Position numbers and translations under genes: made by a program. This document shows positions 579 to 59,190 of a stretch of 59,190 bases of DNA, in pieces. Location: contig CANQJT010000009.1 of assembly GCA_947624325.1 (NCBI GenBank), positions 1 through 59,190 of the forward strand, written 5' to 3'. The stretch's first letter is position 1. Each line of letters begins with the position of its first letter. This stretch comes from Candidatus Gastranaerophilales bacterium (lineage in GTDB: Bacteria; Cyanobacteriota; Vampirovibrionia; Gastranaerophilales; Gastranaerophilaceae). The notes below the pieces were generated by a model, which saw only the letters and a list, made by a program, of their open reading frames with translations, had not been told where the DNA came from and searched no databases.

Positions 579-816
579 AATTACCTCCTTAATTTCTTTG
601 TACTGTCATAAAACCTATAAAGGAAAAAAGTTGTTTTATTTAACCCTAATCTTAAGAAATTGTTACATATATTTTTATGCTTTTACCATTTGAAAAATTG
701 TACTACAAAATAAAGTGTAAGTAAACTATTATAACTTTTTGGAATATTTTTTAATTAAATGTATTCTATATTAATAGAGAGAGTATTAAAAGGTCTGCGA
801 TAGAGAGTAGGTATTT

Positions 817-3438
817 ATGACAGCAGCTAATATTATGAATTTAAGTATAAATGATAAAGCACACGGATATGCAAAAATATATGCGGCATTAATTCAGGAT
901 GAATTTCAAAGAAAAAGAGCATATGCTTCAATTGTCGGTTTGTTTTCATTAGTTGATGCTTTGGAAAAGACTGATAATGAAATTCAAAAAAATATGACAA
1001 TTTTCAGAAATCCGCATTTGAATGAAAAATACGAAATTTCTGATTTATATGTTAATAATTGGCATATTGATGTCAGAATTGCCTGTGAAGGAAATAATGT
1101 TTTAGTACCAAAATGTCATTTTGATAATGATATTTTACCTGATTTTTATGCGGTTATTAAACTTGATAAAGATTTAAAGAATGCAGAATTAATCGGTTTC
1201 GCAGATACTGTAATGCTTGAAAAACAACCGTTTGATTATCATTATTATTCGGTTTCTTTTGATTCCCTAATTTCTTTTGAAGAATTTTTAGTAAAGGTTA
1301 ATAATCCTAAAATAACTAATTTCGATGAATCTGAGCATGAAAAATTCAGAAGTTTATATTTGAGTATTCTTGATGAAGAAATTAATATCGAGGATGAAAA
1401 TAAAGTATTAAAACATTTATTTGAATGTTCGGAATGCAGGAGAGAATTTTGCTGTTTTACGGGATTTGAAATGGTAAATTGTAATCTGGGCAAATATCCT
1501 GAATTATTTGAAGACAAAACACTTAACATAATAGGGGCTCAAGAAGCGGAAAATGAAAAATATGAAGGAAAAGAAGAAACCATTAAGTTTAATGAAGACC
1601 GGGAAACTCTGCAATATAATGATGAAGAAGCTCAAAGTACAGAAGAACAAACTAATGATGAAAAAGAAAATGACTCATCAGATATTCTTGATGAATTATT
1701 CAGTGATGATGAAGAGTCTTATGAACAAACCGCTGCCGATTCTTCTGATGATGTAAATATTAATCAAAAAAATAATGAAAATGAATTGGAAATTATACAA
1801 GATTCAAATAATAGTAATAACTTAGAAGAAGTAAATGATTTAATGATTAAAGAAGAATCTTCTCCTTTGGAAATAATAGGAGGGGATACAATTGACTTAC
1901 CTTCTATAGGAAGTGAAATGGATTTAATAGAGGATAATCCGGATACAAACATTACATATGTTGATGATGATAAATCTTCAGAATTAGAAATTATTGATGA
2001 TAATCCGTCATTAGAAGCAACAAATCCTGATATGAATACTGATAATTCTGAGGTGCAAAAAGTAATTGTTGATTATGATGAATATGGGGAACCCATTTAT
2101 TCATATATTACAAATGTACCGTCGGAAGATAATAAACAAGAAAATTATGATGCAGAACTCAGTGATTATGATATTTTAAATGAAGAATTTGAAACATATA
2201 ATCCTACTGAAAATTTTGATGATGACCTTATTAATATTAAAAACGGCGGAGTAAGAACTATTGAATATGTCCAAAACGAAAGTGAAGATGCTCAAACAAC
2301 TTTAAATACGCAATCTGACGAAAATGATGATATTAAAGACATTAATGAAACTGAAATAATTGAGGATTCTTCCGAAAATGAAAGTCCGGCTAAACAAGAT
2401 ATTGAAATTGAAGATTATTCTGAAAATACAACTCCTGAAATTGTATATAATGACTTAGCGGAAGAAAAATCAGAAGATGAACCTTCTGAAATTATAGAAT
2501 ATAAAGAAACAGATAACGAAACTTCTTTAGAAGAAGATACTGATACAAATCAAGAAGAAACTGAAGATGAAACTGACGGGAATGAAGAATTTGAAGAATA
2601 TTCCGAAGATGATGAAGAAAATGAGTATGAAGAATATGATGATTCACAAATTTCCGATAACAGTTCTTCTTCAAGTAAAAAGAATTTCATTTTACTATCT
2701 GCCGTTATAGGTATAATTGCAATTGCTTCAATTCTTGGCGGAGTATTGATTTCCAAAAATTCAAAATCAGCGGAACAAGCTCCTCAGATTGCACAAAATA
2801 ATGAAAATATACAGATTGAGCAGCCCCAAAATAATGATATGTTTGAGGTTTCGCAAAATGATAACCAAATGCCAAATAATCAGGACAATCCTCCGATGAA
2901 TGAAAATCCGGAAAATAATTTTAATCCCGATCAGCAAGGACAAAATCAAAATTCTGAACCTATGGTTCCTGAATCAGGCAATATAAATCCTCCTCAATTA
3001 TCGGAAAATAATTTAATTCAACCTCAGAACCCGAATACAGCTGATGCAAATCAGGCAATGACAAATGCTTTTGCTCCCGGTGCTTCTAATGTTTCTTTAA
3101 GAGGATTAAATTGGCTTTGTACTCCGCAATTATTTACGGATAACCAATTCAAATCTTATCTGCAAAATCTTGATAATATACTAAAGCTTAACGTTCGGAA
3201 AAATATTCTTAATGCTACCGATAACCCACAGAATTATAATATTTCCGTTAAGATGGCAGTTGATAATAACGGTAATCTTCTTAAAACGGTTATATCTGAT
3301 TCCAGCGGTTCGGAACAAATAGATAACATTGTGTTACAAAGTATTAATGAAACCTTCCAAGGAGAAAAATCCCCAATTCTTACTGATAGTCCGCTTAAAT
3401 CAGATAAATATTATCTAAAAGTTATAATAAAATTGTAA
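817..3438 (+). CDS. DUF1822-like / zinc anti-sigma-like / TonB-C fusion membrane protein
   Basis: This 873-residue protein joins modules not usually found together. Residues about 85-165 follow the DUF1822 pattern known from Cyanobacteria (a VLVPK start, then PDFYAV and ELIGFAD segments). A zinc-binding anti-sigma motif HxxxCxxC is seen at H200, C204 and C207. A very acidic, Asp/Glu/Asn-rich linker of about 400 residues follows, then one membrane segment at about residues 622-648, a Gln/Asn/Pro-rich stretch, and a C-terminal domain (about 795-873) resembling TonB-C (VDNNGNLLKTVISDSSGS). The anti-sigma motif would lie on the cytoplasmic side and the TonB-C-like domain in the periplasm. A sigma factor gene follows 57 bp downstream, which fits an anti-sigma role. 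The start has a weak AGTAGG site. The module calls come from pattern recognition and the role is inferred. Confidence 0.7.
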   Translation: MTAANIMNLSINDKAHGYAKIYAALIQDEFQRKRAYASIVGLFSLVDALEKTDNEIQKNMTIFRNPHLNEKYEISDLYVNNWHIDVRIACEGNNVLVPKCHFDNDILPDFYAVIKLDKDLKNAELIGFADTVMLEKQPFDYHYYSVSFDSLISFEEFLVKVNNPKITNFDESEHEKFRSLYLSILDEEINIEDENKVLKHLFECSECRREFCCFTGFEMVNCNLGKYPELFEDKTLNIIGAQEAENEKYEGKEETIKFNEDRETLQYNDEEAQSTEEQTNDEKENDSSDILDELFSDDEESYEQTAADSSDDVNINQKNNENELEIIQDSNNSNNLEEVNDLMIKEESSPLEIIGGDTIDLPSIGSEMDLIEDNPDTNITYVDDDKSSELEIIDDNPSLEATNPDMNTDNSEVQKVIVDYDEYGEPIYSYITNVPSEDNKQENYDAELSDYDILNEEFETYNPTENFDDDLINIKNGGVRTIEYVQNESEDAQTTLNTQSDENDDIKDINETEIIEDSSENESPAKQDIEIEDYSENTTPEIVYNDLAEEKSEDEPSEIIEYKETDNETSLEEDTDTNQEETEDETDGNEEFEEYSEDDEENEYEEYDDSQISDNSSSSSKKNFILLSAVIGIIAIASILGGVLISKNSKSAEQAPQIAQNNENIQIEQPQNNDMFEVSQNDNQMPNNQDNPPMNENPENNFNPDQQGQNQNSEPMVPESGNINPPQLSENNLIQPQNPNTADANQAMTNAFAPGASNVSLRGLNWLCTPQLFTDNQFKSYLQNLDNILKLNVRKNILNATDNPQNYNISVKMAVDNNGNLLKTVISDSSGSEQIDNIVLQSINETFQGEKSPILTDSPLKSDKYYLKVIIKL

Positions 3439-3495
3439 TTTGTGATATTATATTTTATTATATTGTATAGATATGTAAAATAGAGATAAAATTCT

Positions 3496-4107
3496 GTGCT
3501 GTTAGTTGAGGAACAAAGATCATTAATAGAAAAATTTGTTAAGAATGATAAAAATTTTCTTGGCAATGAAGATTTGTTTGAAGATTTTTGCAGTGAAGCA
3601 TTTCAAAAATCTTACATGGTATTTAATTCTTCTTCTAATATTACAAAAATAGAAAGTTATGTAACAAAAGTTGTTCATACATCTATCTTAAGTGTACTTA
3701 AAAATTCAGGCAGGGTCAGAAGGACATCCGAAGGCTTTATTCCGACAAAAGAAATTGTACTTCCTTCCGAAGAAATTGTCAGCCCTATACCTTCTGAAAA
3801 TCAGGTTAGTTATACTACTACTGTTTCAGGTCCGGAATTTTTTATGGATTTCCCTGATCCCAGAGAAAATGTTGAAGAAATTCTTATTACTAAAGATTGG
3901 CTTCAAAGGATTGTTGATGCTGTTTGTGTTATCCATAAAGAACGTCCTAATGAATACTATCTTAATATTTTTTATTTAAGATATGTTAAAAATTTAAAAC
4001 AGCGAGAAATAGCAGAAAGACTTGAATTATCTCAGTCAGAGGTTAGTAAACGGTTAATGCAGCTTTCTAAGCTGATAAGCAACTTTTTGGATAGAAGCAA
4101 AAGATAG
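3496..4107 (+). CDS. Sigma-70 family RNA polymerase sigma factor (ECF-like, divergent)
   Basis: A 203-residue protein with a clear sigma region 4 helix-turn-helix at about residues 140-200 (FYLRYVKNLKQREIAERL, then LSQSEVSKRLMQLSKL). This region recognises -35 promoter elements. The N-terminal half (FEDFCSEAF, ESYVTKVVHTSILSVLK) has the size and helical character of region 2 but is too divergent to assign firmly. A Pro/Ser-rich linker joins the two. The start is GTG with no strong ribosome site. The gene lies between the putative anti-sigma fusion (57 bp upstream) and the zinc-ribbon ATPase (8 bp downstream), so the three are probably co-transcribed. A region-4-only regulator that is not a true sigma factor remains possible. 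Confidence 0.75.
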   Translation: MLLVEEQRSLIEKFVKNDKNFLGNEDLFEDFCSEAFQKSYMVFNSSSNITKIESYVTKVVHTSILSVLKNSGRVRRTSEGFIPTKEIVLPSEEIVSPIPSENQVSYTTTVSGPEFFMDFPDPRENVEEILITKDWLQRIVDAVCVIHKERPNEYYLNIFYLRYVKNLKQREIAERLELSQSEVSKRLMQLSKLISNFLDRSKR

Positions 4108-4115
4108 GTTCAATT

Positions 4116-7100
4116 ATGAAGTGTCGTAAATGCGGAGCCGAAATAGCTGATAATTCTATCAGATGCAGTAGTTGCGGAATTAAAGTTAATATGGTCTGTC
4201 CTGAATGTAAAACATTAAATTCATTTGGGACATTCGTTTGTAAAACGTGCGGTTTTGAATTGCTTAAGAAATGTCCTTCTTGCAATACCGTTAATTCTTA
4301 TTCGGCTGAATTCTGCAGAAAATGCGGAGCGGAATTAAAAGAAAAAGTAAAATCCGAAAATCAACAATTAAATCAAGAATCAGAAATAGTTAACTCTTTT
4401 TCTTCTGAACTGTCAGAAGCTCAAAATAATTACACTGAAAATAATATAGAAGAACTTCAAAATATTGATAATAAAGAAAATCTAAATGAAACAGATGTTA
4501 ATACGCAGATTGATGAAACATCTCAAATTATTAAAAATCCAGAGAATAAAATCGTTGAAAATATTGAAAATAATATCCCTATAAATTCTGTTGAAAAAAA
4601 TAATCAAACATCAAACAATGATGAAATTCTTGAAGCAAGTGTTGAAATAACTCCTCTGGAAGAAATCATCGATTATGACGTTCAGGAAAGTTTAAATACG
4701 GAAAACGAAGACGATACAATTAAAATTAATGAAGAAGATTATTCTAAAATAGAAGTTCAGTCTTCAGCGGTAGAAAAAGCCGTTAAATTTATTACTTCTT
4801 CAATATCCAAACATGTTTTAGCCGTTCACGGTTCTGACGGCTGCGGTAAAACCGCTGTTTTAAAACAAACACAGCAATGCCTCTCAAAGAAAGGATTTTT
4901 ATTTTTATTCGGAAGTTGTACTCCGCTGCTTCAAATTACCAGTTTCGGTTTCTTTCAGGATGCATTTTTGCGTATAATGGGGTTCCCTCCATATACAAAC
5001 AGTTTTGATGCTTTTGTTAAAGACTTTAAAAAAAGTGCCCTTGCTGATATTTTTAATTTCTTAAATGATGAAGAACTTAACATTTTTTTAAATATTATTT
5101 ATCCTTATCAAAAAGATAAATTTGAAAATATTTTAAAAAATAAACAAATTATGTTTGAAATCTTGGAAAAAGTTATAAAATCATTTTCAATAAACAGTAA
5201 TCTTGTTATAACAATTGATAATTTTGAATTACTGGACGGAGCATCTTATGACTTTATTGTTTATATGCTTCAAAAAGGATATTTTAATAACAGATTAAAA
5301 CTCTTTGTTGCATATAAAGAAGATAAACAAATTCAAAGCTACTTTGATATGACAAAACTTTCAGATGAAATTTTTGAAGTTATTGAAATTGAAAAATTAA
5401 ATAAGACGGAATTGCTTAAAGCTGTTAAAAGATCTCTACATATTGATATTGCTAATATTATGGATAAAGATTATTTAGATGAGATAATTAATAAATCTAA
5501 CGGTAATGCACTTAGAATTGAACAGGAAATTGCACTTCTGTTTAATTGCGGCTACATATCGGTTAATAATAACAATATAATTATTAACAGTGATAATAAA
5601 CCTTCTTCTGAGCCTGTAAGCTTTGAGCAATTGGTAAAATTAAGACTAAATTCTTTATCTCCCGTAATTAAAAATGTTCTTTTTATGTCTGCAATTATGG
5701 GTTACAGATTTGCCATAAGTATTTTAGCACCTGCTTCCGGTATTAGTGGTGATAAACTTCAGAGTATTCTTGATTATTTAAGAGAAGAATTATTCATTGA
5801 ATTTGTTGATAATTATACTTGTGAATTTAAAAGTCTTGAACTTTGGAAATTAATTTATCAGGAAGCTAAAACAGATTTACTTTATAAGGAAAATTCAGAA
5901 AAACTTTACAGCGTTTTAAATCCTTTAGTATTATCAAGTAATTTGCAGAAATTAATATCTTGTACGGGCGGTATATCCAAACAAGATGAATATTTAATAT
6001 GGCAGGAAACATCCAAAATAGCTTCCAAACTTGGTGATACCAATCTTTATATTATCTCTTTAAAACAATGCCTAAAAATAATGGAAGAAGAAAATTTTGA
6101 AAATGCAGAAGAGTTAAAGATAACTTTTTATGAACAACTTGGAAAATTATTATGTGAAAAATCGGCATTTGAAGCGGTTTCATATTTATCAAATGTTCTT
6201 GATTTTCAAATAAAAGCAGATAATATAAAAAAGATTCTTGATACGGCAAGTTATTTTATTAAAAGCTGTTATATTGCAGGTAATTATTTTGGAGTTACTG
6301 AGGCCGTAGATGCTGTTATTGCTTCCGTAAGCGGCAGAGAAACGGATATTTCGTTAAGCGAACTTGCCCTGTTAAAAACAAGAAAACTTAAAGCTTTATT
6401 TAACATAGGAAACAGTGAACAAATTATAAATCTTGTAAACGAGGAAATTATTCCGTCTATTGACAGTGATTTAGCATCAAGGCAGACTGATTCTAAATAT
6501 AAGAGTCTTTTAATTGACGGCTGGCTCTGTGCTAAATCAATTCTTGCAAAAGCTTATGCCCTGCAGGGTAATAATAAGGTATTTAGTGTTATTGCAGATT
6601 TAAGAACATTTATTGAAAAATATAATTATGATACCGATTTTTATGTTATTCAAATTAATTTAATTGAGGCATTTGCAAATACTATTGTAGGCGAGGTTAA
6701 TAAATCTAACGAAATTCTGGCTGAAATATCTTCCGTGGCGAAGTCGGGTACTATTGAATCCGAACTGTTATCTGAGTGGAACATAATTAATATAATAAAC
6801 AGAATTTTATTAAATGAAAATGAAGGCTTAAAGTCCGATTTATTTGAGCTTGCCGCATTTACAAATAATATTAATGAGCATTTTATTAAAAATATTATTA
6901 AATTAATTTTAGGTTATGTTCTTAAGCAGGAAGGTAATATAAAGAAAGCACTTGAAATATTTAATGAGGAAATAACTTATTTCGCCAAAGAAAAAGTTGC
7001 AATAGGCGCATTGCTTTCCTGGTTATTGATTGTTCAAATAACTATGGATATGGGTGATGATGAAAAAGCATTGTCTACGGCATCTAAATCACTGGAAATT

Positions 7101-7469
7101 GCTCAAAGCCCAAAAATAAATAATTATTTCTTTATAATTTATTTCCAAAAATTAATGGCTGAAATCTATATGAAAAAAGGTGATTTTAGTGCAGCAAAAA
7201 TGTATTTTGAAAAAGCCGTAACACTTGCTAAACAATACGAATTAAAATATCAAGTAGCTGAACTTTATATATCTTACGGTATTTATATGGAAGAATTTAT
7301 GAAGGTTAATACTGCCTTTACTGATGAAAATATGAATACAACAGCACAAATGTATGATAAAGCATTAAATGTTGCAAAAGAATTAAAAATAAAAAATCTG
7401 ATTGATAAAGCAAATAAATTAAAAAATGAATTTAAAACAAGTGCAAGATTAAATTCTGTTTACAAATAG
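4116..7469 (+). CDS. Zinc-ribbon AAA/STAND-type ATPase with helical repeats
   Basis: A 1117-residue protein. The N-terminus holds six CxxC pairs (C3/C6, C17/C20, C28/C31, C42/C45, C53/C56, C67/C70), enough for three zinc ribbons. A disordered Asn/Glu-rich linker runs to about residue 215. An ATPase domain follows, with a Walker A motif GSDGCGKTA at about 239-247 and a Walker B-like LVITIDNFELLD at about 363. The C-terminal 600 residues are TPR-like helices, clearest in KAYALQGNN, KKALEIFNEE and DFSAAKMYFEKA. The layout resembles the large signalling ATPases of the MalT or adenylate cyclase-associated type, but no output domain such as a LuxR HTH or cyclase is visible. It follows the sigma factor gene by 8 bp, so a scaffold or sensor role in the same regulatory circuit is likely. 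Confidence 0.75.
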   Translation: MKCRKCGAEIADNSIRCSSCGIKVNMVCPECKTLNSFGTFVCKTCGFELLKKCPSCNTVNSYSAEFCRKCGAELKEKVKSENQQLNQESEIVNSFSSELSEAQNNYTENNIEELQNIDNKENLNETDVNTQIDETSQIIKNPENKIVENIENNIPINSVEKNNQTSNNDEILEASVEITPLEEIIDYDVQESLNTENEDDTIKINEEDYSKIEVQSSAVEKAVKFITSSISKHVLAVHGSDGCGKTAVLKQTQQCLSKKGFLFLFGSCTPLLQITSFGFFQDAFLRIMGFPPYTNSFDAFVKDFKKSALADIFNFLNDEELNIFLNIIYPYQKDKFENILKNKQIMFEILEKVIKSFSINSNLVITIDNFELLDGASYDFIVYMLQKGYFNNRLKLFVAYKEDKQIQSYFDMTKLSDEIFEVIEIEKLNKTELLKAVKRSLHIDIANIMDKDYLDEIINKSNGNALRIEQEIALLFNCGYISVNNNNIIINSDNKPSSEPVSFEQLVKLRLNSLSPVIKNVLFMSAIMGYRFAISILAPASGISGDKLQSILDYLREELFIEFVDNYTCEFKSLELWKLIYQEAKTDLLYKENSEKLYSVLNPLVLSSNLQKLISCTGGISKQDEYLIWQETSKIASKLGDTNLYIISLKQCLKIMEEENFENAEELKITFYEQLGKLLCEKSAFEAVSYLSNVLDFQIKADNIKKILDTASYFIKSCYIAGNYFGVTEAVDAVIASVSGRETDISLSELALLKTRKLKALFNIGNSEQIINLVNEEIIPSIDSDLASRQTDSKYKSLLIDGWLCAKSILAKAYALQGNNKVFSVIADLRTFIEKYNYDTDFYVIQINLIEAFANTIVGEVNKSNEILAEISSVAKSGTIESELLSEWNIINIINRILLNENEGLKSDLFELAAFTNNINEHFIKNIIKLILGYVLKQEGNIKKALEIFNEEITYFAKEKVAIGALLSWLLIVQITMDMGDDEKALSTASKSLEIAQSPKINNYFFIIYFQKLMAEIYMKKGDFSAAKMYFEKAVTLAKQYELKYQVAELYISYGIYMEEFMKVNTAFTDENMNTTAQMYDKALNVAKELKIKNLIDKANKLKNEFKTSARLNSVYK

Positions 7470-9446
7470 TTATTGATAGATTTTTCTATACATGTGGTAG
7501 CTTTTGAAAACCTTTTTAACATAGTGTTTTGTTTCATCATAAGGTATATTTTCAATAAATTCATCTAAATCATCGGTATTAAACTTGGTAATCCATTTTT
7601 GCAGTGCGCCTTCGCCGCCGTTATAAGCAGCAACGACATATAAATCATTATTAAATTTATCTTTTAAATATTTTAAGTAGTTACAGCCAATATATAAGTT
7701 AACTTTCGGATTTTCTAAATCAGCCAGTGATTGAATACTCATTGATAATTTTGAACTCATATAATTAGCGGTGGAAGGCATTAATTGCATTAATCCTATT
7801 GCGTTAGATGAACTTTTTGCATGTTCGTTAAAATAGCTTTCTTCTCTTATTAAGCCTGTTATCAAAAAAGCATCAATGTTTAATTTTTGAGCGGCAATGT
7901 TAATTTCATCGGCATAATATAAAGGGTAAGCCAGTTTATAAGCCGCACTAATTAAAGGCGGTTTTACATCCATTGAGTTTATTTCATCTCTGGCAAGCAC
8001 TATTGATGCGGATTTTCTATCTTTTTTGGCTTCAAACCAGCTTTTTACGATTTTATTATTATAATCAGCATCAAGCCATAGTTCGTAATCACCCATTGAA
8101 AAGAGTGTATTTATTAATTTTAAGTCTTTGATATTTAATTGTGAAAATGAAATCGGAAATTCAAATTCTTCTTTTTGGAGCGGTAATTTTAAATTTGGAT
8201 TTGTCTGCCAAAAATCAGTTTTTTTGTTAAGTAAAAAATCTGCTCTTAAACCGTAATAATCATCAGGATATTTAGTGTTTAATTTTGATAATACGGTATT
8301 GGCTTCCTGTGTTTTGTTTAGTTTAATAAGTGTTTTAGCATACCAGAACATCATTTTTTTTGTTGATTTAACATTATTGTATGTTTTTAAGTGTTTAACA
8401 GCCAAGTCTTGCGCTAAACTATAATTTCTGTTGATATATTTATTCCAAAATAATTCCCATAGTGCTTCAGGTGCATATTCGGATGAAGGAAAATTTGTAA
8501 CAATTTCATTATATAAATTAATTGCTTTTTCTTTTGGTAAGATATCTGCTAATTTATATAGGACATAATCTTCCCCTGCAAGTTTGTGTTTTTTTATAAG
8601 TAATGACATTAAAGACCAATTTTTTATTTTGCTTCCCGGCATATAGGAGGTATATATATCATAAATTTGTTTTAAATTAGCCTTTTCAGTTTGAGCTGAA
8701 TAAGCAGTTATATCATTTTCAATTAATTTTTTTGCAATTACTTTATTTCCTGCATAATGATTAGCTAAGACAAGATAATCCCAGCAGGTATTTAACGGTA
8801 ATGTTGAAAAATATTTTAATGCTTCTTGGTATTTTTTATTTTTATAATATGTTATTCCTATAAGTTTTTTTTCATCGGCGGTTAGTTCTCTGCCGATTGA
8901 AGATAATTCTTCTGCTGCAGGTATTTCATAATTTCTGTTGCCTGTTGATGCTTCAATGTAATCTTTTAAATAATTTGCTGCTTTTTCTTTATCATTATTT
9001 TTTTCAATTATTCCCAGAAAATAATCGGCACTTGTTATTTCGTTATTTTTATTGTTTTTAACTTTTAAGAAATAGTTTTTTGCATTTTCATAATCTTTTA
9101 AATAATAATAACAACTGGCAAGATTATATTCTGCATTTTGTGCAAATATTGAATTGGGATTTTTTTCCAAAAATAATTTATATTTTAATATTGCATTAGT
9201 AAAGTCGCCCACTCTTTGGGCAGATTTTGCCTGTTTATATATTGCTGTTGTATAAAGGGGGCTTATGAATTTGATTTTTCCGAAATTGTAATATGCGTTT
9301 TGATAATCTCCGCTATTATAAAATTCAACCCCTTGTTTATAATATACAGGTGAGTTTTCGGTTATTTTGTCATTATAGATAAGAATTGCCAGTGTAGTCG
9401 GAATTATTACTATAAGACTTATTCCTATTTGTTTTAAATACTTCAT
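7470..9446 (-). CDS. Soluble lytic murein transglycosylase-like protein with TPR repeats
   Basis: A 658-residue exported or membrane-anchored protein with an N-terminal hydrophobic segment (IGISLIVIIPTTLAILIY). The middle contains TPR-like repeats (YNSGDYQNAYYNFGKI, YNLASCYYYLKDYENAKNYF). The C-terminal region, about residues 505-640, is an SLT domain. Its catalytic Glu lies in LIREESYFNEHA near residue 530, followed by AIGLMQLMPSTA and AAYNGGEGAL, the conserved active-site segments of Slt70-type enzymes. Such enzymes cleave the MurNAc-GlcNAc bond of peptidoglycan to give 1,6-anhydromuropeptides. The ATG is preceded by GGGAAT. The gene is last in the gyrB group, 51 bp after the diguanylate cyclase gene, and its stop abuts the convergent ATPase gene with no gap. 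Confidence 0.9.
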   Translation of the reverse strand: MKYLKQIGISLIVIIPTTLAILIYNDKITENSPVYYKQGVEFYNSGDYQNAYYNFGKIKFISPLYTTAIYKQAKSAQRVGDFTNAILKYKLFLEKNPNSIFAQNAEYNLASCYYYLKDYENAKNYFLKVKNNKNNEITSADYFLGIIEKNNDKEKAANYLKDYIEASTGNRNYEIPAAEELSSIGRELTADEKKLIGITYYKNKKYQEALKYFSTLPLNTCWDYLVLANHYAGNKVIAKKLIENDITAYSAQTEKANLKQIYDIYTSYMPGSKIKNWSLMSLLIKKHKLAGEDYVLYKLADILPKEKAINLYNEIVTNFPSSEYAPEALWELFWNKYINRNYSLAQDLAVKHLKTYNNVKSTKKMMFWYAKTLIKLNKTQEANTVLSKLNTKYPDDYYGLRADFLLNKKTDFWQTNPNLKLPLQKEEFEFPISFSQLNIKDLKLINTLFSMGDYELWLDADYNNKIVKSWFEAKKDRKSASIVLARDEINSMDVKPPLISAAYKLAYPLYYADEINIAAQKLNIDAFLITGLIREESYFNEHAKSSSNAIGLMQLMPSTANYMSSKLSMSIQSLADLENPKVNLYIGCNYLKYLKDKFNNDLYVVAAYNGGEGALQKWITKFNTDDLDEFIENIPYDETKHYVKKVFKSYHMYRKIYQ

Positions 9447-57973: not shown

Positions 57974-59190
57974 ATGGCTGAATTTGATTTAAACAATATT
58001 AAAAACTATTTTGAATCAAAAGGTTGTGATTTAACCGACATGAGAAAAAAGAGCGGAAAGTCAAAAAACGTAGATGATAAAAGTGTAAGTGCATTTGACT
58101 CTGATAACGGAATTATAAATAAAGAAGATTTCATTGAAGAATTACGGGCTACAAAAAATAATCCGCTGTCCGTAGAGCAACTAGGTTTACTATATGATGC
58201 CATAGCAAGTTTTGACGGGGAAGACGGGATGTCCCAAGAAGAACTTGAGTGGCTTGCAAGTTTAGGTAATGAAACAGATGTTAATGACCCTAACGGTAAA
58301 AAGATAAATGAAGAAGATATAGAAGTATTATTGGATTCATTAATGCTTGATGAAGTTGAAGAAGAAACAGATTTACCTGAAGCTGTATTTAAAAATGATG
58401 ACAGAATTATTGAAGATTCGGAAGGCAACCGTTCGGTATATGTTGAAAAATGGGTTGCCGGTGGTAATAAAAGCCAAATGGATTGTTTAGAGCATATTAT
58501 TGCCAACTGTTATGATTTAGATGCAATGGGTATCAAATACGGCAGTGAAGAATATTATGAATTAGAAAAAGCCGTAATGGATGCAAACCCTTGGATATAT
58601 GAAGTTGATGAAAACGGTAAATTAATAAGAAATGACAGAATTGTATGGCATAAACCTGATGAAGATTGCTCAAAGAAAAGACATTGTGCAATATTATTTA
58701 CAGGTGATAAGATACTTCTGCCTGATTTCAAACCGAAAGAACCGGATGCGGAATATTGTCCTGATGATGAGGATGATACGGAATATTGTGATGATAATAC
58801 AACACCTGAACCATCACCTCCAGTACCTCCAACAGAAGAAACAAAGCCAACAGAGCCTCCGCCGCCACCTCCTCCACCAACAATGCCGACAGAGACAACA
58901 CCTCCGCCGCCGCCTCCTCCACCAACGAAGCCGGATCCAACAGTACCAGATCCAACAGTACCAGATCCAACAGTACCGGATCCAACAGTACCGGATCCAA
59001 CAGTACCAGATCCAACAGTACCGGATCCAACAGTACCGGATCCAACAGTACCAGATCCAACAGTACCAGATCCAACAGTACCAGATCCAACAGTACCGGA
59101 TCCAACAGTACCAGATCCAACAGTACCAGATCCAACAGTACCAGATCCAACAGTACCAGATCCAACAGTACCAGATCCAACAGTACCAGA
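57974..59190 (+). CDS. EF-hand-like, LysM-like protein with polyproline and PDPTV repeats (3' end missing)
   Basis: The frame starts at ATG 57974 with AGGAG seven bases upstream and stays open to the right edge, giving at least 405 residues. Three degenerate EF-hand-like loops come first (FDSDNGIINKEDF, FDGEDGMSQEELEWL, NDPNGKKINEEDI), each one or two residues shorter than a canonical loop. A LysM-like region follows (CLEHIIANCYD, AVMDANPWIYE, FTGDKILLPDF), with six Cys in and after it. Two runs of eight prolines and then at least 17 PDPTV repeats make up the C-terminus seen here. No signal peptide is visible. A surface or appendage protein with a stiff proline-rich stalk is plausible. Function unknown. 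Confidence 0.78.
   Translation, partial: MAEFDLNNIKNYFESKGCDLTDMRKKSGKSKNVDDKSVSAFDSDNGIINKEDFIEELRATKNNPLSVEQLGLLYDAIASFDGEDGMSQEELEWLASLGNETDVNDPNGKKINEEDIEVLLDSLMLDEVEEETDLPEAVFKNDDRIIEDSEGNRSVYVEKWVAGGNKSQMDCLEHIIANCYDLDAMGIKYGSEEYYELEKAVMDANPWIYEVDENGKLIRNDRIVWHKPDEDCSKKRHCAILFTGDKILLPDFKPKEPDAEYCPDDEDDTEYCDDNTTPEPSPPVPPTEETKPTEPPPPPPPPTMPTETTPPPPPPPPTKPDPTVPDPTVPDPTVPDPTVPDPTVPDPTVPDPTVPDPTVPDPTVPDPTVPDPTVPDPTVPDPTVPDPTVPDPTVPDPTVPDPTVP
58931..59190 (+). repeat. 15-bp in-frame tandem repeat (PDPTV)
   Basis: Seventeen full copies and one partial copy of CCRGATCCAACAGTA run to the window edge. The only variation is the third base of the first Pro codon (CCA or CCG), so every unit encodes PDPTV. 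The true length is unknown because the array is cut by the window. Confidence 0.97.

Follow-up and report, generated by a model that had tools for sequence, protein, structure and literature searches.

A conserved Gastranaerophilales operon that joins a DUF1822–anti-sigma membrane protein, an ECF sigma factor and a zinc-ribbon STAND NTPase, probably as a self-amplifying signalling loop

What might a membrane protein, a sigma factor and a large ATPase do together in an uncultured gut bacterium? The question is raised by three consecutive plus-strand genes in a window of 59,190 nucleotides (nt), bases 1–59190 of contig C9 of a 1.98-Mb Candidatus Gastranaerophilales genome. An earlier note had read them as a signalling set, and we confirmed its coordinates and intergenic gaps (57 nt between genes 1 and 2, 8 nt between genes 2 and 3). 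Gene 1 encodes a membrane protein with DUF1822, anti-sigma and TonB-C-like domains, gene 2 an extracytoplasmic function (ECF) sigma factor, and gene 3 a STAND NTPase with zinc ribbons and tetratricopeptide repeats (TPRs) (Table 1). Our analysis indicates that they probably form a self-amplifying signalling operon, in which gene 1 would restrain the gene-2 sigma factor, this sigma factor would drive its own operon, and the STAND protein would act as a separate switch. Three features that bear on this reading, the DUF1822 domain, the C-terminal TonB-C-like domain and a conserved promoter upstream of gene 1, were absent from the earlier note.

The three-gene order is conserved well beyond chance. 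In a survey of one or more representatives per genus, with 39 genera assessable (g24 and g32 were left out), the sigma and ATPase genes were adjacent in 30 genera and all three genes stood together in 27; the three genera with the adjacent pair and an incomplete trio are g5 and g31, cut by contig ends, and g41, in which a stripped DUF1822 protein is encoded elsewhere. Each of the 17 complete loci from the window's genus has the same order, with gaps of 45–57 and 8–11 nt, so the gene order, whose conservation had been put forward as a check, is kept. Most of the near relatives, which were retrieved with the sigma gene, are deposited as Candidatus Gastranaerophilales metagenome-assembled genomes, several of which come from gut samples of goat, roe deer and other animals. 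Rearranged forms also occur: in g9 and g20 the DUF1822–sigma pair is still adjacent with the ATPase elsewhere, and in g22, g37 and g38 all three genes lie apart; here the ATPase gene neighbours a pdxJ-like gene, and the DUF1822 gene is often next to one resembling glyS, for glycyl-tRNA synthetase (both names are readings of sequence). In these last three genera (L061, L062, L070, L071 and L075) the sigma gene and an Omp85/POTRA (BamA-like) gene are divergently oriented, which may point to a connection with outer-membrane assembly.

The part of gene 1 that bears the HxxxCxxC motif is recognisable from its sequence as a class-I anti-sigma domain. A zinc anti-sigma motif in a membrane protein had been claimed, and we find it as HLFECSEC at residues 200–207, together with a single membrane helix. 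Pfam zf-HC2 matched the window's protein weakly at residues 185–208 (20.3 bits, just under the cut-off of 22.2), and it matched nine of the ten members of a set covering the anti-sigma region (residues 165–235), with a best E value of 3.2e-7. When a ten-member profile of the same residues was searched against 177,635 PDB sequences, the only matches at E < 0.1 were RsiW (E = 0.0043) and DdvA (E = 0.044), both of which are anti-sigma factors. The region also aligned by hhalign (96%, E = 4e-9) with short anti-sigma factors that are encoded in the family's genomes beside ECF sigma genes of their own, including one in the window's genome. AlphaFold2 modelled residues 1–240 as an alpha/beta domain and a helical part, with a predicted local distance difference test (pLDDT) score of 89.6; Foldseek returned no match at E ≤ 0.001 for this DUF1822/anti-sigma model, a search in which the anti-sigma part was barely tested, and the assignment therefore rests on sequence profiles. 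HxxxCxxC is intact in the window's genus and in g6, g9, g13, g19, g20, g33 and g34, as well as in the stand-alone versions of gene 1 in g3, g22, g27, g37, g38 and g40, and is gone in many other genera, where the flanking helices are still recognisable. Zinc and zinc-less forms are commonly mixed within groups of class-I anti-sigma domains (PMC7406223).

DUF1822 was matched in 25 of 29 aligned gene-1 relatives and zf-HC2 in nine of them. The leading VIA rows for the alpha/beta fold of DUF1822 are PD-(D/E)XK nucleases, at Z scores of 7.3 or less, and the catalytic D...(D/E)xK pattern was not found in the domain, which has D76 and D85-x-R87 with arginine in place of the lysine; the likeness is thus a lead only. 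A long acidic linker leads to the membrane helix, an N/Q/P-rich stretch follows it, and the C-terminal TonB_2 match recurs in 23 of 27 gene-1 relatives. The predicted topology is that of a protein of the inner membrane with a cytoplasmic anti-sigma domain and a periplasmic TonB-C-like domain.

Co-variation points to the cytoplasmic part of gene 1 as the partner of the sigma factor. We compared pairwise distances over the 47 loci that have all parts, and sigma distances followed those of the anti-sigma module with a Spearman correlation of 0.864, compared with 0.647 for DUF1822, 0.599 for the ATPase and 0.382 for TonB-C; among 70-residue blocks of the ATPase the highest value was 0.646. The partial correlation between sigma and anti-sigma module given the ATPase was 0.785, a value reached by none of 300 permutations, and with one locus per genus the partial correlation was 0.741. 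These correlations speak for a contact of sigma with the cytoplasmic portion of gene 1, for which the anti-sigma module is the best candidate. Losses agree with this partnership: DUF1822 and a true sigma orthologue were both missing from g35 (four genomes, which retain the ATPase) and from G052. The lasting adjacency of genes 1 and 2 in g9 and g20, despite a distant ATPase gene, supports it as well. Gene 1 might instead be a positive co-factor or an energy-transducing TonB/FecR-like partner, its TonB-C-like domain contacting an outer-membrane component and its cytoplasmic part activating sigma. FecR-type regulators both inhibit and activate their sigma factors, the TonB-C-like domain is present in nearly all members of the gene-1 family, and cyanobacterial DUF1822 partners without HxxxCxxC imply that pairing with sigma may do without zinc. 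We nevertheless consider this role unlikely, as the module that tracks sigma reads as a class-I anti-sigma domain matching RsiW and DdvA, and no TonB-dependent receptor gene was seen beside the operon, where no search was aimed at receptors or ExbB/ExbD.

Gene 2 scored 50.1 bits against NCBIfam sigma70-ECF (cut-off 42.9) over residues 10–194 and was above the cut-off of Pfam Sigma70_r4_2 (region 4), in line with its first description as a sigma-70-like factor. Pfam Sigma70_r2 gave no match, and region 2 is thus divergent. A search with the single gene-2 sequence found a match in 135 of 146 family genomes, some of them only weak region-4 matches. Eight further sigma-70 genes with region 2 are present in the window's genome, and a literature search found nothing on Gastranaerophilales sigma factors. 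In g25 (L109, L110 and L111) sigma regions 2 and 4 are separated by an acidic insert that runs to several hundred residues, and the loci share a different upstream sequence. A classical ECF sigma/anti-sigma pair (L290) is encoded elsewhere in the window's genome (G000 contig C6, about 5179–6486), and its anti-sigma factor seems to carry a second, zinc-less copy of the domain.

Upstream of gene 1 we found an ECF-type motif of the form TTGGAATATTTTT-N-G(T/C)NNTCTA, with 19 nt between GGAAT and TCTA. The pattern GGAAT-N19-TC[TA] was present in 25 of 33 upstream regions taken across the family (500 nt each), compared with 0–5 occurrences for each of the control spacings from 14 to 24 and a mean of 0.5 in shuffled sequences. 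The first G of GGAAT mostly lies 36–76 nt before the start codon (209 nt in L051 and about 437 nt for the true copy in L068). At genome scale, the strict pattern was found in 67 of 117 family genomes, mostly directly before gene 1, and twice in the window's genome, one match being the window copy. As a negative control, a pattern one base too long missed the operon in 19 of 19 congeners, whereas the correct spacing recovers it in the window's genome and in many congeners. The motif is absent in g25, g30 and g41, where sigma has strongly diverged, and was not found before unlinked ATPases or between the sigma and Omp85 genes of g22, g37 and g38. From its position, its ECF-like form and its co-variation with sigma, we infer that the gene-2 sigma factor reads this motif. 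No second recurrent target promoter emerged from the pattern search with correct spacing, so a narrow regulon is likely, not proven. A second element, TGTTACAAAA-N-TTTACA, lies about 24 nt before the −35 element in many, not all, genera, for example in L053 and L041.

Another sigma factor of the cell might read the promoter, gene 2 being a decaying sigma factor with another job. The genome does hold the eight other region-2 genes just mentioned, and the gene-2 protein is degenerate in several genera, such as g25 with its acidic insert. However, the ECF-type motif is largely confined to genomes with a well-conserved gene 2 and is absent from those with a degenerate copy, and gene 2 is above the ECF family cut-off here. 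We regard this possibility as very improbable, and keep the gene-2 protein as the candidate reader of the promoter.

The third gene was described from the outset as a 1117-residue ATPase with three zinc ribbons and TPR-like repeats, and all of these elements were recovered: residues 1–74 contain six CxxC pairs, and an AAA_16/STAND ATPase and TPRs follow. Of 50 orthologues, 49 retain the P-loop lysine. A PDB sequence search with the protein alone gave no match, and one with the gene-3 profile gave weak Sr35 and zinc-ribbon matches only; its identity was settled by fold comparison. The predicted structure of residues 213–660 (pLDDT 92.6) matched MalT (Z 21.1), the STAND-TPR protein PH0952 (Z 20.6) and Apaf-1 (Z 20.1) in VIA over 342–367 residues, and these matches identify gene 3 as a STAND NTPase. 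Its distribution is broad, with a match in 144 of 146 family genomes and in 41 of 41 sampled genera. Many genomes also encode a distinct paralogue of about 1180 residues beside a glgA-like gene (again a name read from sequence). Other Vampirovibrionia families have zinc-ribbon ATPases that are more distantly related and have neither sigma nor DUF1822 neighbours. We rejected the assignment of g22-type ATPases to the glgA-side paralogue, as they score 764–873 bits compared with 141–203 for the paralogue. In g35 and g41 (L124, L125, L126 and L128) the ATPase gene is followed by genes for a conserved secreted protein of about 660 residues with many TPRs and for a small lipoprotein-like product.

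Whether the ATPase belongs to the same pathway as the sigma factor is a point on which our reading departs from the first one. In an integrated system, perhaps a conflict or cell-fate switch, the ATPase would be a relay or effector. Such a system is suggested by cyanobacterial loci in which ECF sigma and DUF1822 genes adjoin genes for EACC2-caspase proteins, a number of which also have STAND domains (Kaur et al. 2021, eLife, PMC8195603). The constant gap of 8–11 nt before the ATPase gene and the STAND nature of its product speak for such a system, as does the reach of the gene-1 profile, which matches only L103 and L107 among 30 cyanobacterial loci, the neighbour of L107 being EACC2/caspase-like. 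On the other hand, every sampled genus has the ATPase, even where sigma and DUF1822 have been lost or are no longer linked to it; its co-variation with sigma is far weaker than that of the anti-sigma domain; and its relatives in other Vampirovibrionia families lack both neighbours. We judge an integrated role for the ATPase to be on the unlikely side, though deserving some weight. Of the signalling set first proposed, the data thus support a conserved operon that pairs a membrane anti-sigma factor with an ECF sigma factor; they do not support the ATPase as a signal relay, since it is kept where sigma and DUF1822 are lost and is unlinked in several genera.

The reading that we prefer, a self-amplifying loop with a separate STAND switch, can be set out as follows. 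Gene 1 would sit in the inner membrane, where its cytoplasmic class-I anti-sigma domain, beside DUF1822, would hold the gene-2 sigma factor, with the acidic linker and membrane helix joining this cytoplasmic part to the periplasmic TonB-C-like domain. An envelope signal would loosen the hold on sigma, with the TonB-C-like domain, the DUF1822 domain or both serving to sense it or pass it on, and the freed factor would take RNA polymerase to the TTGGAATA...GYNNTCTA promoter. Since that promoter sits before gene 1, the main target found is the sigma factor's own operon, and its output would be more regulator, more sigma and more zinc-ribbon STAND protein. The STAND protein would most likely be a switch in its own right, which would be closed in its ADP state and would assemble in its ATP state once its TPRs bind a ligand, and the loop would set its amount.

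Several observations weigh against this reading. When the zinc-bearing or the zinc-less subgroup is taken by itself, the anti-sigma domain loses its lead, and DUF1822 follows sigma about equally well. DUF1822 is kept in g27, where sigma is degenerate or not found, and L052, which has a well-conserved sigma, shows no motif within 500 nt. In addition, the failure to identify a second target promoter means that a wider regulon with weaker sites may exist.

Table 1 Coordinates of the operon and its parts in the window
Feature	Position	Strand	Details
Putative ECF-type promoter TTGGAATATTTTTTAATTAAATGTATTCTA	739–768	+	−35 TTGGAATA, −10 GTATTCTA; first G of GGAAT 76 nt before the ATG
Gene 1	817–3438	+	873 residues; DUF1822 / anti-sigma domain / acidic linker / membrane helix / TonB-C-like membrane protein
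DUF1822 domain	841–1311	+	residues about 9–165; Pfam E 2.5e-7, above cut-off
Class-I anti-sigma domain, zf-HC2 type (by sequence)	1309–1521	+	residues 165–235; HxxxCxxC at 1414–1437
Acidic linker	1513–2679	+	residues 233–621; 34% D+E, 5% K+R
Single membrane helix	2680–2760	+	residues about 622–648
TonB-C-like domain	3106–3435	+	last 110 residues; TonB_2 25.6 bits, cut-off 22
Gene 2	3496–4107	+	203 residues, GTG start; ECF sigma factor, regions 2 and 4
Gene 3	4116–7469	+	1117 residues; triple zinc ribbon / STAND NTPase / TPR protein
Three zinc ribbons	4116–4337	+	12 cysteines, residues 3–70; invariant in 50 of 50 orthologues
STAND NTPase core, helical and winged-helix domains	4752–6095	+	residues 213–660
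TPR-like sensor region	6096–7466	+	residues 661–1117

Outside the operon, a convergent gene for a soluble lytic transglycosylase (7470–9446, minus strand) has its stop codon adjoining that of the ATPase gene and is kept in a few near relatives. A minus-strand gene at 3–578 is truncated at the contig edge and contains 45-bp tandem repeats (4.8 copies, 95%) that code for AQAVVEGAKG(A/T)ADDV units. The other end of the window (58829–59190) carries 45-bp and 15-bp tandem repeats, the latter in 17 copies (97%).

The first reading was aware of no described system with this composition. In the literature searched, we likewise found no description of the exact three genes; however, a DUF1822 gene beside an ECF sigma gene, with a third gene of caspase/STAND type, is already published for cyanobacteria (PMC8195603), and the operon is therefore a variant rather than a wholly new kind. 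We saw such ECF–DUF1822–caspase-type neighbourhoods in the cyanobacterial loci L102, L105 and L107 (caspase-like by resemblance), and most of the best 30 cyanobacterial DUF1822 genes adjoin a gene that matches the sigma profile. In both lineages, then, an ECF gene lies beside a DUF1822 gene and the third gene is of signalling type and can include STAND. The cyanobacterial loci differ in being ordered sigma–DUF1822–caspase; their DUF1822 proteins are shorter, about 320–500 residues, without the long linker and TonB-C arm, and HxxxCxxC was not found in those examined; and gene 3 here is a zinc ribbon–STAND–TPR protein without a caspase.

With RsiW and RseA (Wu et al. 2020, PMC7406223) gene 1 shares an anti-sigma domain, a membrane helix, a predicted extracytoplasmic sensor, an ECF partner in the operon and the mixture of zinc and zinc-less forms, but it adds DUF1822 before the anti-sigma domain, an acidic linker of about 390 residues and a TonB-C-like sensor, and here the anti-sigma gene precedes sigma. 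The classical pair L290 also has an ECF sigma gene adjoining one for an HxxxCxxC membrane anti-sigma factor, although that factor is short and lacks DUF1822, acidic linker and TonB-C. Gene 3 has the NTPase, helical and winged-helix domains followed by TPRs of MalT and PH0952-type proteins (VIA Z 20–21), with a triple zinc ribbon in place of the LuxR or other output domain. What sets this variant apart is the DUF1822 protein with a fused anti-sigma domain, membrane helix and TonB-C-like arm, and its zinc-ribbon STAND partner. A bolder reading, speculative and with a low chance of being right as a whole, is that the operon represents a Gastranaerophilales branch of phylum-wide DUF1822–sigma signalling, with a TonB-like sensor arm, a catalytically dead PD-(D/E)XK-like DUF1822 and an NLR-like zinc-ribbon STAND switch, in which envelope and cytoplasmic sensors would converge on one self-amplifying loop.

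For a large uncultured lineage of the animal gut, the operon offers a concrete candidate signalling system with a defined promoter, which makes its regulation testable in a heterologous host. The direct fusion links the uncharacterised DUF1822 family with anti-sigma factors and suggests what its cyanobacterial relatives may do beside their ECF sigma genes. Finally, the intact, rearranged, degenerate and lost versions found across the family form a natural series in which joint change of a sigma factor, its putative anti-sigma factor and their promoter can be followed.

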